Assembly: GCF_018402495.1 (NCBI RefSeq) | Contig: NZ_JAGYIU010000005.1 | Coordinates: 62,001 to 126,000, forward strand | DNA length: 64,000 bases | From: Pseudoalteromonas sp. | GTDB lineage: Bacteria; Pseudomonadota; Gammaproteobacteria; Enterobacterales; Alteromonadaceae | Reading direction: 5' to 3' | In this document: positions 13,320-57,343 of the stretch, piece after piece | Layout of the letters: each line of letters begins with the position of its first letter | How positions within the stretch are numbered: position 1 is the first letter of the stretch | Position numbers and translations under genes: made by a program | Notes under the pieces: model-generated | What the model was told of the DNA's origin: nothing | Databases searched by the model: none | Seen by the model: only the letters and a program-made list of their open reading frames with translations

Positions 13320-13350
13320 AAAAAGGCCGGTGATTAAATAATCACCAGCC
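13320..13350 (-). terminator. rplL-rpoB intergenic attenuator / partial terminator
   Basis: Reverse strand GGCTGGTGATTATTTAATCACCGGCCTTTTT: ~11-bp stem plus T5 between two co-transcribed genes. Confidence 0.7.
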
Positions 13351-13391
13351 CTTGCCTGATTTCTCAGGCAGCGAACCTAGCAAAAGCTAGA

Positions 13392-50961: not shown

Positions 50962-51660
50962 CTATTGTTGTTGGCTTATTCCCACTCGATTGTCGCCCAC
51001 ACCATAAGCGACAATTAAGCTTAGCTCTTGCATGCTTAAGCCGCTTTGCTGCTGCAGTTCATTAAAGAATGCCTGCGCCGCACTTAGTGACTTTTTAGTT
51101 TGCAATCCACCATCTATAATTTTATGTGCACGCAAATAGCTTTCTACGTCTCTTGAAAGTAAAAAAGTATCTTTTCCTAAGGCGCGCAGCGCATAAGGGC
51201 CGGTATTACCACCAAGCCTTGCACCATGCTTTTTTAAATACGCCCACAAGCCAATAATATCTTCGCTTGGCCAGTTTGCAATAAACTGACTAAAGCTTCC
51301 ATGCTGCTGTGCAACTTCATGGATCATATACGCATTTTCAGTAATCGTTTTCACTTTTTTATAATTGCGTACAATCCGTTCATCACTGGCTTTTTGCTCC
51401 AGCATATCCGGTGGCATCATTAATAATTTTTCAACATTAAAATCCCAAAAAACTTCCCTAAATCCTGCCCACTTATTATTGATCACCGACCAATAAAAAC
51501 CACTTTGAAATACCTTGCGAGTAAACTCTTCGAGCCAATCATCATCACTTAATGTGCTAAGTTGTTTTGTTGATAAAGGTTTTGCGAGTAACAACTTAAG
51601 CATTTTTTCAGAGCCCTTTCGCTCTATTGCACGCTTATAAATATCGCTAAATTTTTCCAT
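50962..51660 (-). CDS. DNA-3-methyladenine glycosylase I-like protein
   Basis: LTK-like WLEEFTRKVFQSGFYWSVINNKWAGFREVFWDFNVEKLL; Tag-family architecture, 232 aa. Confidence 0.8.
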   Translation of the reverse strand: MEKFSDIYKRAIERKGSEKMLKLLLAKPLSTKQLSTLSDDDWLEEFTRKVFQSGFYWSVINNKWAGFREVFWDFNVEKLLMMPPDMLEQKASDERIVRNYKKVKTITENAYMIHEVAQQHGSFSQFIANWPSEDIIGLWAYLKKHGARLGGNTGPYALRALGKDTFLLSRDVESYLRAHKIIDGGLQTKKSLSAAQAFFNELQQQSGLSMQELSLIVAYGVGDNRVGISQQQ

Positions 51661-51849
51661 CTGCTTACTGCCTTACTTCTACTATGGGTCTAGTGTACGA
51701 GAAAAGCAGCCAATACGTAATAGCTGTCCTTTGGGATGAATTTATCTGCATTTAGTCACTTGACACCTAGACGGCTAAAGTGGTTTAATCGCCTGACTTA
51801 CCCTATTACATTGTATTTGCTAATTGGTTTTTCAATAGCAAGTGCAAAG

Positions 51850-52024
51850 GGCTGGAAGAGGTGCGTTATTCAGGTAGCGTATGTTAGGAGCACAAACTCC
51901 ATTGAGCATACGTGAGGGGAATTAACGCCGAGAGGTAATACTTTTTGTGAAAGATTATCTCGGGCGACTAGGTTGAATCCTAGCGACTGTCACCAATAAC
52001 ATATTTGGTGGAGAGCTTCTGGTC
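51850..52024 (+). ncRNA. Lysine riboswitch (L-box) aptamer
   Basis: ggctggaag AGAGGTGCG..GTAGCGTATG...CATACGTGAGGGGAATTAACGCCGAGAGG...CTAGGTTGAATCCTAG CGACTGTCACCAA...TTGGTGGAGAG cttctggtc. Closing P1 pairs 51850-51858 with 52016-52024; P4 and P5 hairpins are recognisable. Confidence 0.92.
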
Positions 52025-52125
52025 TTAGTATAATAAGGCCGTGCGTCTTGTTATTTAAGCCCATTCGCTCTTCGAATTATTCATTCGAACGATGTTAATG
52101 CGGTTCCATTCATACAATGCCTTAA

Positions 52126-52155
52126 CTCTTCGAATAACTTATAAGTTCGTGAGAG
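52126..52155 (+). promoter_or_regulatory. Hairpin abutting the dapA-like start codon (candidate riboswitch expression platform)
   Basis: CTCTTCGAA TAACTTATAAG TTCGTGAGAG directly before ATG at 52156: ~9 bp with one bulge. Confidence 0.4.
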
Positions 52156-53040
52156 ATGAACAACAATTTTAATATAAACGACTTCCATTTATGGACTGCG
52201 CTGATCACCCCATTTGATCAAAATGGCCAAGTTGATTACGCAACATTAAATACCTTAGTGGCCGACCAAGAAGCGGCTAATAATGGCATTTTATTGCTAG
52301 GTAGCACCGGTGAAGGGTTAGCCCTTACCCTAAAAGAGCAGCAAGCCATTGTAGAGCATGTCTGCCAATTAAAACCGAGTGTCCCCCTTATGGTTGCGGT
52401 AGGCGGTAGTAACTTAAAGCAACAGCTTGAATGGGTTAATTACTGCAACCAACTGCCTATTCATAGCTTTTTACTCGGCTCGCCTTTGTATGCTAAACCC
52501 GGTGCACTGGGGCAAACTCATTGGTTTGAAAGCTTACTCGATGCAAGCTCTCATCCGTGTATGCTTTATAACGTACCTGGGCGCAGCGCGGTTAGCATTC
52601 CTATTGCTACCATTGAAAACCTCAAACACCATAAAAATTTATGGGCCCTTAAAGAAGCCAGTGGCTCGATCTCTCAATTTGAAGCCTTTCGAAAAGCAGC
52701 GCCTGATTTAGCTATTTTTAGTGGTGACGATGCACTTATGCCTTACTTTGCCCAAGCGGGTGCTAAAGGTTTAGTGTCGGTTGCAGCTAATGCTTGGCCG
52801 GTGCAAACCCATGAATTTGTAAAGCGAAGTTTAAGCGGCCAACACCCTAATCTTTTTTCGCAGTGGTCTAGCGCTATCAACAGCTTATTTTCAGTAGCAA
52901 ACCCTATCCCAGTCAAAGTGTTAATGCATTTACAAGGGCGTATCAGCAATCCGCATTTACGTCCACCTTTAACGCACCTTGAGCTGACACACACAGATGA
53001 CATTTCATCGGCAAACAACACCATTTTATCTTGGCATTAA
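52156..53040 (+). CDS. 4-hydroxy-tetrahydrodipicolinate synthase-like protein (DapA family)
   Basis: ALITPFDQNGQVDYATLNTLV, LLLGSTGEGLALTLKEQ, YNVPGRSAVSIP, LWALKEASGS, 294 aa. Confidence 0.93.
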   Translation: MNNNFNINDFHLWTALITPFDQNGQVDYATLNTLVADQEAANNGILLLGSTGEGLALTLKEQQAIVEHVCQLKPSVPLMVAVGGSNLKQQLEWVNYCNQLPIHSFLLGSPLYAKPGALGQTHWFESLLDASSHPCMLYNVPGRSAVSIPIATIENLKHHKNLWALKEASGSISQFEAFRKAAPDLAIFSGDDALMPYFAQAGAKGLVSVAANAWPVQTHEFVKRSLSGQHPNLFSQWSSAINSLFSVANPIPVKVLMHLQGRISNPHLRPPLTHLELTHTDDISSANNTILSWH

Positions 53041-53055
53041 ATACAGGTTTTTATA

Positions 53056-53796
53056 ATGAGCTGGTTAGAACTATTAAATAATTTAGAATCGGGCGCGGTT
53101 CGCGCAGCAACACAAGACGACAACGGCCAATGGCACGCAAATATAGAAGTAAAGCAGGGGATTTTAGAAGCCTTTAAAAACGGCCAAAACACCGAGTTTG
53201 CAGGCGGTTTTGTTGATAAACATAACTTAGCACCTCAAGAGTTTACAGCTGATGCTGGGGTTCGTATGGTACCCGGCGGCTCAAGTGTACGCCGCGGTGC
53301 GTATGTTGCCAAAGGGACTATTATCATGCCCCCTGCCTATGTGAATATTGGTGCCTATATTGACGAAGGCACTATGGTCGATAGTCATGCATTAGTTGGC
53401 TCGTGTGCACAAGTAGGTAAAAACGTACACTTAAGTGCGGCAGTACAGCTAGGGGGTGTACTTGAGCCCATTGGTGCAAGCCCTGTGGTAATAGAAGACG
53501 ATGCATTCATTGGTGCAGGCTGTGTGATTGTTGAAGGCGTGGTAGTTAAAAAAGGCGCGGTACTTGCCCCAGGTGTTCGCTTATCTGCAACCATCCCTGT
53601 TTATGACTGCGTAAATGAGCGCCAGCTTGATAAAGGCGAAGCAATCCCTGAATACGCGATTGTGATCCCTGGTTCTCGTCCTGCGTCAAACGATTGGGCG
53701 CGCGAGCAAGGCTTAAGCATGTCGTGTGCGTTAATTGTTAAATACCGTGACGAGCAAAGTGATGCGTCATTATTGCTTGAAGAGGTTTTACGTTAA
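53056..53796 (+). CDS. Divergent, N-terminally short tetrahydrodipicolinate N-succinyltransferase-like protein (DapD family)
   Basis: VNIGAYIDEGTMVDSHALVGSCAQVGKNVHLSAAVQLGGVLEPIGASPVVIEDDAFIGAGCVIVEGVVV left-handed beta-helix; 246 aa. Confidence 0.92.
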   Translation: MSWLELLNNLESGAVRAATQDDNGQWHANIEVKQGILEAFKNGQNTEFAGGFVDKHNLAPQEFTADAGVRMVPGGSSVRRGAYVAKGTIIMPPAYVNIGAYIDEGTMVDSHALVGSCAQVGKNVHLSAAVQLGGVLEPIGASPVVIEDDAFIGAGCVIVEGVVVKKGAVLAPGVRLSATIPVYDCVNERQLDKGEAIPEYAIVIPGSRPASNDWAREQGLSMSCALIVKYRDEQSDASLLLEEVLR

Positions 53797-55001
53797 TGAC
53801 CTTTTTGAGCACGCCCGTTAAAAGCGCTATTGATAAGCTATCAACTGAGCTTGATACGCCCTTTTTTGTTTATGATCTTGATTCACTAAACACACATTTA
53901 ACGCGTTTAATAGCACAAACCGAGGTAAAACTCTGGTATGCCGTTAAAGCGAACCCGTTATCTAGCGTGATCCAACGCTTAAATAACGCTGGTTTTAACT
54001 TTGATGTCGCCAGTAAAGGCGAGCTTGAGCAAGTGCTTGCGCAAGGAATTAATAGTGAGCGTGTGCTCAATACGGGGCCCGCTAAAAGCCCTAAACAAAT
54101 TAAACATTTTATTAAGCGTGGTGTACGCATATTTGTGGCTGAAAGTCTCAATCAAGTTCGGTGGTTAAACGAACAAGCCAATGCCCAGCAGTGCCAATTA
54201 CAGGTTTTATTACGTGTACAATTACGCTGGCCTGAAGGCGAAAAAAATCCACTTGGGGGGGATAGCCTTACTCCATTTGGCTTAGGGTGCGACGAGTGGC
54301 AGGCGCTAAATACCAGTGACTACTGTGCACTTAATTTTGACGGTCTGCATATTTTTCAGTGGGGCAACATGCTTAGCAGCGACAAACTCGCTGAGCTGTG
54401 GACACAAATGATTACGCCGTTAAGGCAACTTGCTGAGGATTTAAATATTAACCTCAAGGTGCTGGATTTAGGTGGTGGTTTAGGTATTCCCTATACGCTT
54501 GATACGCCCACTCTAAGTTGGGATGCACTCATAGAGGCGCTTGCAAAAATTAAATGCGATGCGGGGGTTACTGAACTATGGATGGAACTAGGTCGCTACG
54601 CTGTAGGCGAATGCGGCCACTATGCCACGCCGGTGATTGAACGCAAACTTAACTACGGCCAACAACAGGTGATTATGAGCGGCGGTATTAATCACTTGTT
54701 ACGCCCTGCCGTTACCAGTCAAGATTTTCCTGCGCGTTTATTACGCGATTCAAACGCTGCAAACCAAGTAATGAGCCTATACGGACCATTATGTACGGCC
54801 CTTGATTGCTTAGGAGAGCACCAATTACCCAGTGACTTAAATGAGCATGATTGGCTGGTGTTTAGTCAATGCGGCGCTTATGGCTTTACTGAAAGTATGC
54901 CGTATTTTTTATGCCATGAGCTTGCTGGTGAATATGTAATAGACAATGGCGTATTACGTTGCGTGCGACAAGCACAAGATGCCAGTGACTACTTAAGGTA
55001 A
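53796..55001 (+). CDS. PLP-dependent diaminopimelate decarboxylase-like protein (LysA family)
   Basis: TPFFVYDLDSLNTHL, LWYAVKANPLSSVIQRL, FDVASKGELEQVL, LDLGGGLGIPY; start overlaps the dapD-like stop (TAATG). Confidence 0.88.
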   Translation: MTFLSTPVKSAIDKLSTELDTPFFVYDLDSLNTHLTRLIAQTEVKLWYAVKANPLSSVIQRLNNAGFNFDVASKGELEQVLAQGINSERVLNTGPAKSPKQIKHFIKRGVRIFVAESLNQVRWLNEQANAQQCQLQVLLRVQLRWPEGEKNPLGGDSLTPFGLGCDEWQALNTSDYCALNFDGLHIFQWGNMLSSDKLAELWTQMITPLRQLAEDLNINLKVLDLGGGLGIPYTLDTPTLSWDALIEALAKIKCDAGVTELWMELGRYAVGECGHYATPVIERKLNYGQQQVIMSGGINHLLRPAVTSQDFPARLLRDSNAANQVMSLYGPLCTALDCLGEHQLPSDLNEHDWLVFSQCGAYGFTESMPYFLCHELAGEYVIDNGVLRCVRQAQDASDYLR

Positions 55002-55006
55002 TTATA

Positions 55007-56128
55007 ATGAGTATTACACCCCCTATCAGCCAAGAAAATATCGTGGTTGGCGAAGTCGCAAACGGGCTACCACTGACTATTCCTGTGTATCGTTTAAAGG
55101 GCGATGGCACGGGGCCAAGCGTGTATATACAAGCTAATATGCATGGCGCAGAGGTGCAAGGCAACGCGGTAATTTACCAACTACTTGAACAGTTAAAAAC
55201 ACTGAATTTAAAAGGCGATATTACCTTAGTACCTTACGCTAACCCCATTGGCTGTAACCAAAAGTCGGGGGAATTTACTCTTGGCCGATTCGATCCCATT
55301 ACGGGGACTAATTGGAATCGCATGTATCACTGCAATAATCAACTTGCGACCCAGTTTGCACAGCAGTACAGCGATGCCGATGATCAGGTGCTAAAAGCAG
55401 CTTTTAAAGCCGCGTTAACTAATGACGTTGAGCAACAGCTCAATGGCCCTAATTATCGTTTAACGACGGGGAAACGGATTGCGCTAAACTTACAAAAATT
55501 GGCGCATCAAGCTGATATAGTTTTAGATTTACACACCGGCCCTATTTCTAGTCAACACTTATATTGCCCTGAGTATGCCATTGATAGCGCGCGTTACTTT
55601 AATATTCCCCATGTGCTCGTTATTCCTAATGACTTTGATGGCGCAATGGATGAGGCAAGCTTTTGTCCATGGTGGCAGCTTAGCGAGCAACTTGCTCAAC
55701 AGGGGCGTGAATTTAACGTGCAAGTTGAAGCTTTTACGGTAGAACTGGGCAGCCAAGAAAAAATCGATTTAAGCGCAGCACTAGACGATGCCAATAGTAT
55801 TTTAAGTTATTTAAATTATAAGCACGTATTTGTTGATGCCCCCTACAAGCCAAAAACGATGACAAGATATGGCTGCCAACTAAATGACTATATTGCTTAC
55901 TATGCGCCTATGGGTGGCATGGTTGAATACCTAGCGCCTCTTGGTGGGCATATTAAAGCCGGCGAACCCATTGCAAAAATACTACGGATGGAGCGCTATT
56001 TAAGCGAGCAACCTTTACAAACGCTGAGCTTTGATCATGATGCGATTGCGATATTACATTTTGCCTCAGCCAGCGTAAACCAAGGCACCGAACTGTATAA
56101 GTTTTTTACTAACGTTTTTGAGCTTTAG
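55007..56128 (+). CDS. AstE/AspA-family (succinylglutamate desuccinylase/aspartoacylase) zinc hydrolase
   Basis: VYIQANMHGAEVQGNAVIYQLLEQL, LDLHTGPISSQHLYCPEYA, VEAFTVELGS; 373 aa. Confidence 0.9.
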   Translation: MSITPPISQENIVVGEVANGLPLTIPVYRLKGDGTGPSVYIQANMHGAEVQGNAVIYQLLEQLKTLNLKGDITLVPYANPIGCNQKSGEFTLGRFDPITGTNWNRMYHCNNQLATQFAQQYSDADDQVLKAAFKAALTNDVEQQLNGPNYRLTTGKRIALNLQKLAHQADIVLDLHTGPISSQHLYCPEYAIDSARYFNIPHVLVIPNDFDGAMDEASFCPWWQLSEQLAQQGREFNVQVEAFTVELGSQEKIDLSAALDDANSILSYLNYKHVFVDAPYKPKTMTRYGCQLNDYIAYYAPMGGMVEYLAPLGGHIKAGEPIAKILRMERYLSEQPLQTLSFDHDAIAILHFASASVNQGTELYKFFTNVFEL

Positions 56129-56311: not shown

Positions 56312-57343
56312 ATGAGCTGGTGTCACTGGATATTACTTCTACCATTACTAAGCACTACCGTTGTTGCTAAAGAAACAGCTAAAAACGAGCAAAGCAATGA
56401 AGTTGAACTGGTAAAACAGTGTATATTAAATGAAGTCATCGGGGGGGATGGTGAGCAAACACTCGATCAACTTCGTCAAAAATGCTCAGCACTGGAAGAG
56501 AATAAACAACTCACTGCTATAGATAAACGTAAAGCACGTGAAAAAGTCAGTCAACAAAATCGCAATGTGATCACACCACATAAACGTAATTATATTTTAC
56601 CCTTATCGTATGTTTCTAACCCGAATGCGCGCCCTTTTGACTACTTACAACCATTAACTGATCAATCAGATGGTGAGAAAATAGATAATCTCGAAGCAAA
56701 ATACCAGCTCTCGATTAAGGTGCCTCTATTTGATGACTTTTCCGATAAAGATCAAGCCATCTATTTTGGCTTTACCTTGCAATCATATTGGCAAGTTTAT
56801 AACAAAGATATTTCCTCTCCTTTTCGCGAAACCAACTATGAGCCTGAAATATTTTGGGTAAATTATCTTGATAAAGAGCATGTTTTGTGGGGAGATGAAA
56901 TGGCTATTGCACTGGGTATTTCTCATCAATCTAATGGTCGTAGCCAGCCAAACTCACGGTCGTGGAATCGTATTTATGCCAATTTCATTTGGGAAAAGGA
57001 CGGCTTTGTATTTACTTTTAAACCTTGGTACCGACTCCCAGAAGACAGAAAAAAAGACTCACTAGATGCCCGTGGTGACGATAATCCAGACATATACAAA
57101 TATATGGGGTACTTTGAGTTTGGTGGCGTATATCGCTACCACGATCACGAGTTTAGTTTTATGACGCGCAATAATTTGAATTCAGATAACCGAGGTGCAC
57201 TTCAGCTTGATTGGTCGTTCCCGTTATGGGGTCGGGTGCGTGGTTACGCCCAATACTTCAACGGTTACGGTGAAAGTTTAATTGATTATAACGCTGATAT
57301 AGAACGTATTGGCGTGGGTATATTGTTAACTGACTTACTGTAA
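56312..57343 (+). CDS. pldA: Outer membrane phospholipase A1
   Basis: IALGISHQSNGRSQPNSRSWNRIYANFIWEKDGFVFTFKPWYRLPED; start chosen at MSWCHW behind an AAGGAATT ribosome-binding site. Confidence 0.93.
   Translation: MSWCHWILLLPLLSTTVVAKETAKNEQSNEVELVKQCILNEVIGGDGEQTLDQLRQKCSALEENKQLTAIDKRKAREKVSQQNRNVITPHKRNYILPLSYVSNPNARPFDYLQPLTDQSDGEKIDNLEAKYQLSIKVPLFDDFSDKDQAIYFGFTLQSYWQVYNKDISSPFRETNYEPEIFWVNYLDKEHVLWGDEMAIALGISHQSNGRSQPNSRSWNRIYANFIWEKDGFVFTFKPWYRLPEDRKKDSLDARGDDNPDIYKYMGYFEFGGVYRYHDHEFSFMTRNNLNSDNRGALQLDWSFPLWGRVRGYAQYFNGYGESLIDYNADIERIGVGILLTDLL

Follow-up and report, generated by a model that had tools for sequence, protein, structure and literature searches.

An operon behind a lysine riboswitch in Pseudoalteromonas and a possible lysine-dedicated branch of the diaminopimelate pathway

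Introduction

A 64,000-nucleotide stretch of Pseudoalteromonas DNA, hereafter called the window, carries a lysine riboswitch in front of four genes, dapA2, dapD2, lysA2 and a gene for an acylase of the M14 family, which may together provide a lysine-dedicated branch of the diaminopimelate (DAP) pathway. In the reading that we tentatively prefer, the branch is under riboswitch control, and the PLP-dependent decarboxylase LysA2 would act before the M14 acylase removes the succinyl group. Both the riboswitch and the operon are already known from a 2017 survey (PMC5584792), so that novelty lies not in the RNA but in the reading of the downstream pathway, which was not found in the literature searched.

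Results

The riboswitch aptamer

L-box RNAs bind L-lysine and repress genes for lysine biosynthesis or transport. A first-pass annotation of the window had placed such an element at 51850-52024 and suggested a cmscan comparison with the Rfam model RF00168, which, once run, returned a significant match at 51848-52026 on the forward strand that spans model positions 1-182 of 182 and scores 104 bits against a gathering score of 30 (E 1.3e-26, computed for the whole 64 kb on both strands). The structural details of that annotation also held: each of the three L-box cores occurs once in the window (AGAGGTGCG at 51857, GAGGGGAATTAACGCCGAGAG at 51914 and CGACTGTCACC at 51984), the P4 hairpin CTAGGTTGAATCCTAG lies at 51968-51983 and the P5 hairpin CACCAATAACATATTTGGTG at 51991-52010, and the two P1 arms form nine of nine standard pairs, three of which are G-U. 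It was mistaken, however, in holding that no gene annotation would show the element, which annotation with Rfam covariance models readily finds. The leader comprises the following features, of which the last four are discussed below:

51848-52026, forward strand: lysine riboswitch aptamer, RF00168, full length (cmscan)
51850-51858, forward strand: P1 5' arm, pairing with 52016-52024
52016-52024, forward strand: P1 3' arm, partner of 51850-51858
52010-52016, forward strand: GGAGAGC of the aptamer 3' core, invariant in 39 leaders, proposed partner of the downstream switching element
52020-52041, forward strand: proposed anti-P1 hairpin, 52020-52027 with 52034-52041, from a single-strand fold
52067-52076, forward strand: switching element GCTCTTCGAA, proposed to pair with GGAGAGC (ON) or with the start-region TTCG..GAGAG (OFF)
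52126-52155, forward strand: proposed sequestor hairpin abutting the dapA start codon, from a fold

As a riboswitch, the element in the window is unremarkable: its class is known and its location has been published. It shares with the L box of RF00168 the full-length match, all cores, helices P1 to P5 and a position upstream of lysine synthesis genes, here dapA-dapD-lysA2-M14, and this placement is conserved; the aptamer itself shows no differences, whereas the leader that follows it has a conserved GCTCTTCGAA element of its own. From family membership we infer that it binds lysine and represses the genes behind it. A second RF00168 element (95 bits) lies upstream of lysC in the source genome. 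Upstream of the riboswitch, a divergent reading frame at 50962-51660 on the reverse strand encodes a weak relative of DNA-3-methyladenine glycosylase I (59.8 bits in a partial-protein Pfam match, far under the TIGR00624 cut-off), and at 13324-13384 on the reverse strand there is a match over the gathering score (54.9 bits) to RF00630, the Pseudomonas sRNA P26, in what is a Pseudoalteromonas genome.

The leader and a model for switching

A downstream 7/7 complement of GGAGAGC is present in 81 of 81 leaders, compared with 27.7 expected by shuffling, a count that allows G-U pairs and is drawn from related leaders rather than independent cases. The element in question reads GCTCTTCGAA in the window and in a family that we take to be Shewanella-like (f6), judging by how close the Shewanella proteins 3fmc and 3lwu are to its M14 acylase; in Colwelliaceae it reads GTTCTCCGAAC. 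Its CGAA end also complements the TTCG that precedes the GAGAG abutting the start codon. We searched the forward strand of the leader for a terminator-like site and found none, which led us to reject an intrinsic terminator as the expression platform and to prefer translational control, so that switching most likely takes place at the level of translation. When lysine is absent, the 3' strand of the aptamer would pair with the downstream GCTCTTCGAA, leaving the dapA start open; when lysine is bound, P1 would form, GCTCTTCGAA would be freed, and the CUC..CGAA elements would cover the GAGAG/AUG region.

Across 39 leaders, 94.8% of the cells in the anti-P1 helix are paired, as are 76.9% of those in the whole sequestor helix, of which the inner CGAA/TTCG part is well kept. 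Double-sided covariation beyond chance was looked for in the leader helices of the same 39 sequences and found in none, the anti-P1 helix included, and the switching scheme therefore stays a model. Five Pseudoalteromonas leaders (L147, L148, L152, L153 and L165) are about 60 bases longer than the others, and L147 (4151-4372) carries a MITE-like insert with the ends ACCAACT/AGTTGGT within the loop that the sequestor hairpin would form.

The operon is a second gene set

Four genes follow the leader:

52156-53040, forward strand: dapA2, 4-hydroxy-tetrahydrodipicolinate synthase (TIGR00674, 263.8 bits, cut-off 206)
53056-53796, forward strand: dapD2, short tetrahydrodipicolinate N-succinyltransferase (NF008808, 302 bits, cut-off 204)
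53796-55001, forward strand: lysA2, PLP decarboxylase of the BtrK/SbnH kind by closest solved sequences and tree, under the TIGR01048 and TIGR03099 cut-offs
55007-56128, forward strand: M14 acylase of the AstE/AspA fold, orthologue of 3fmc and 3lwu (PF24827 and PDB matches)

DapD2 passes the model of the PRK11830 type (NF008808) and falls under the cut-off of TIGR00965. The next gene, pldA (56312-57343), begins after a gap of about 180 bases. Elsewhere in the source genome there are a canonical lysA (538.7 bits), dapD (480 bits) and dapE (557 bits) and a further dapA above the cut-off, and because that set is complete, the operon in the window is a second one. The same genome encodes a second protein of the DapE family (C3:289262-290371, 365 bits, just over the TIGR01246 cut-off).

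The order dapD-lysA2-M14 was found in all 80 loci fetched from named genomes, 69 from Pseudoalteromonas and 11 from Colwelliaceae, with dapA ahead in nearly all; the closest named genomes, where LysA2 identity reaches 90%, are Pseudoalteromonas. By motif search, a riboswitch precedes dapA in 77 loci, including 69 of 69 in Pseudoalteromonas, and lysC in 15 loci. Gene content varies around this core: seven genomes of one family (f16) have riboswitch-lysC-dapA-dapD-lysA2-M14, the f6 family and genome G074 have riboswitch-lysC-M14, genome G003 has dapB-dapD-lysA2-M14, and in some other genomes M14 stands alone. Since 92 loci retain the switch ahead of dapA or lysC, the role in lysine supply that the first-pass annotation had given to the four downstream genes is well grounded, and their identification as dapA, dapD, a LysA-like decarboxylase and an AstE/AspA-like acylase supports it.

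Table 1 of the 2017 survey lists riboswitch-dapA-dapD-lysA-hypothetical1-hypothetical2 for P. haloplanktis (PMC5584792), that is, the same operon behind the same switch in the same genus. The survey regards this lysA as nothing unusual, and one of its two hypotheticals appears to be the M14 gene. It also thought the operon restricted to Pseudoalteromonas, whereas we find it in Colwelliaceae, in other families of the order and in a distant family as well.

Two possible orders for the last steps

In the preferred reading, the branch would part early from the standard DAP pathway. DapA2 and DapD2, together with housekeeping DapB and an ArgD-type aminotransferase, would yield N-succinyl-LL-DAP, LysA2 would decarboxylate its free L-centre to give N2-succinyl-L-lysine, and the M14 acylase would then remove the succinyl group to release lysine. 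Lysine would thus form without DapE, DapF or free DAP; plentiful lysine would shut off this second, lysine-dedicated set through the riboswitch, and the feedback would spare DAP for the cell wall. We infer the substrates of LysA2 and of the M14 acylase, as well as the order of decarboxylation and then desuccinylation.

The main alternative keeps the standard order: the M14 acylase would be a DapE analogue that gives LL-DAP, and LysA2 would decarboxylate free DAP, either LL-DAP directly or meso-DAP after DapF, so that the operon would be a lysine-regulated set of isozymes. We regard this as a serious candidate, if on the doubtful side. An M14 acylase of this kind would share with DapE (M20) the proposed action on a succinylated intermediate of the DAP pathway, but the two belong to unrelated sequence families, and a true DapE is encoded elsewhere in the source genome.

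LysA2 is not a LysA orthologue

The description of the operon as non-canonical was borne out more strongly than the first-pass annotation could have expected, as its LysA-like protein is not an orthologue of LysA and has a separate ancestry by sequence comparison. LysA2 scores 190.6 bits against the TIGR01048 equivalog, whose cut-off is 297.9. Among solved sequences it lies nearest to BtrK (7e-35) and SbnH (4e-32), and every LysA matches at 1e-27 or weaker. In a maximum-likelihood tree it groups with BtrK and the exosortase-type decarboxylases, with LysA across a 100/98 branch; long branches make its exact position in this tree unsure, and BtrK was included there while SbnH was compared by sequence search only.

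LysA2 and LysA have the fold and the PLP and catalytic residues in common, and an alignment across two distant families shows K51, E264, R303, C333 and Y362 in both. Their fixed differences include an E-to-T exchange at 334, beside the catalytic Cys (CET/CES in LysA, CTS/CTA in LysA2), and YN-R to FF-C near 371-373. In DAP decarboxylase, the DAP carboxylate is bound by an Arg on the specificity helix and the amino group of the substrate by an acidic residue next to the catalytic Cys; the related enzymes FigC, SbnH and BtrK use L-amino acids that are acylated or carrier-bound (PMC7857480). The Arg, which corresponds to R303 by alignment only, is invariant in LysA2; the acidic residue is absent, with Thr in its place in all LysA2 sequences. 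With the Arg kept and the acid lost, the pocket would suit DAP with an acylated far amino group. LysA2 also has the LCT loop at the catalytic Cys in common with BtrK and SbnH and may resemble them in the kind of substrate used, but differs from them in keeping the RP Arg of LysA and in being located in a lysine operon. The loss of the residue that would bind a free amino group, and the grouping with enzymes of acylated substrates, argue against the standard order with free DAP as the substrate. A Foldseek search with the LysA2 model did not separate BtrK from LysA and was dropped as a test of specificity; the specificity-helix and Cys-loop segments of the model are under pLDDT 50.

The M14 acylase

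The Zn ligands H46, E49 and H176 and the catalytic E246 are present in all close relatives of the M14 acylase, and the HxxE/H ligands and catalytic Glu are common to CphZ, AstE, 3fmc and 3lwu. The solved structures 3fmc (SAMA_0604) and 3lwu, which have no assigned function, are close orthologues (query TM about 0.95). Among relatives with a named function the nearest is CphZ, which hydrolyses cyanophycin dipeptides (23% identical, TM 0.8). AstE was rejected as the closest relative, CphZ being closer in the structure comparison; against solved AstE structures the query TM is about 0.4-0.5, which does not indicate AstE orthology. By our own chemical comparison, the beta-aspartyl dipeptides that CphZ cleaves would be close in shape to N2-succinyl-Arg and N2-succinyl-Lys.

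The kinship with CphZ, and the genomes in which M14 is found alone, would also suit a salvage role, in which the M14 acylase would cleave dipeptides as CphZ does, setting lysine free from beta-aspartyl-lysine or from other N2-acyl-lysines, and dapA-dapD-lysA2 would be a separate isozyme set in the same operon. We consider this very unlikely: among the M14 proteins collected here, those with more likeness to CphZ form a group of their own (100/100), and three of its four members are encoded next to ABC uptake genes, the lysine-linked ones form other branches, and the fixed order dapD-lysA2-M14 argues for a single pathway.

The riboswitch-lysC-M14 operons of the f6 genomes (L052-L059), mostly beside arcA, bear on the order of the last steps. 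These genomes are without LysA2, and in those examined the possibility that it is encoded elsewhere was rejected, the LysA-like matches being of the ornithine-decarboxylase type (GPTCDS). Their M14 proteins have active-site residues identical to those of lysA2 operons. Because the operon occurs there without LysA2, comparison of gene content indicates that the M14 acylase of f6 has a lysine-linked job with no need of N-succinyl-lysine made by LysA2. The standard order, with M14 first, explains such operons; they are the main point against the proposed shortcut, and a DapE-like role for M14 suits them at least as well.

Genomes of a distant family with no LysA above the cut-off

A family of another order in the same class (f72), with genomes of about 2 to 3 Mb, has further arrangements. 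In seven of its genomes (G476, G517-G521 and G540) no LysA reaches the cut-off, and lysA2 lies next to M14; the operon of G476 reads riboswitch (83 bits)-lysC-dapB-dapA-dapD-lysA2-M14. A second M14 paralogue adjoins dapF in G476, and dapF-M14 also occurs in G403; in the two f72 genomes with this arrangement (loci L229 and L232) the paralogue lies directly after dapF. No DapE is recognisable in three f72 genomes (G403, G193 and G315): M20 peptidases are entirely absent from G403, and the M20 proteins of the other two are amidohydrolases or carbamoylases. The absence of DapE is less certain in G476, because one M20 protein encoded there, beside an argH-like gene, is a sub-threshold protein of the ArgE/DapE type.

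The M14 paralogue beside dapF in two genomes, and the three genomes that a replacement of DapE by an M14-type enzyme would fit, count in favour of the M14-first order, and in G403 the paralogue adjoining dapF may replace DapE. Yet G476 already has an M14 linked to dapF, so that the one linked to lysA2 would be redundant as a DapE analogue, and positions D215-E216 and S249-Q250 distinguish the two M14 types. From this gene arrangement, the DAP and lysine branches of G476 seem each to own one acylase. This partition, in which one M14 sits with dapF and the second with lysA2, gives the best genomic clue that the M14 on the lysine side acts on something other than N-succinyl-DAP.

Discussion

The placement of the riboswitch before dapA or lysC, the existence of a second gene set, the ancestry and altered active-site motif of LysA2, its pairing with the M14 acylase and the f72 genomes with no LysA above the cut-off all speak for decarboxylation before desuccinylation. 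Besides the f6 operons, the coexistence of DapE and LysA in the window genome counts against it, in that the shortcut is not forced there. Taken more broadly, the preferred reading is of a lysine-specific terminal branch of the DAP pathway that avoids free DAP and replaces LysA in some f72 genomes, with M14 paralogues replacing DapE, a picture that is plausible but that we put forward with reserve. A lysine-derived special metabolite as the product, in place of lysine for protein, is most unlikely: relatives such as BtrK and SbnH do serve special metabolism (PMC7857480), but the lysine riboswitch, the partners lysC, dapB, dapA and dapD, and the genomes whose best LysA candidate is LysA2 all stand against it.

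We found no biochemistry on LysA2 or M14 in the literature searched, no paper combining a lysine riboswitch with succinylglutamate desuccinylase, and none combining N-succinyl-lysine, lysine biosynthesis and a desuccinylase, in searches that took in a minority of the subscription journals; wider searches gave nothing relevant in titles or the starts of abstracts.

If the preferred reading is true, keeping the succinyl group until after decarboxylation would separate the supply of lysine from that of DAP for the cell wall, and lysine could repress the lysine branch without repressing DAP supply. It would also assign a role to the solved structures 3fmc and 3lwu, put right the naming of 'lysA' in many genomes, and account for the bacteria that manage with no recognisable DapE or LysA.
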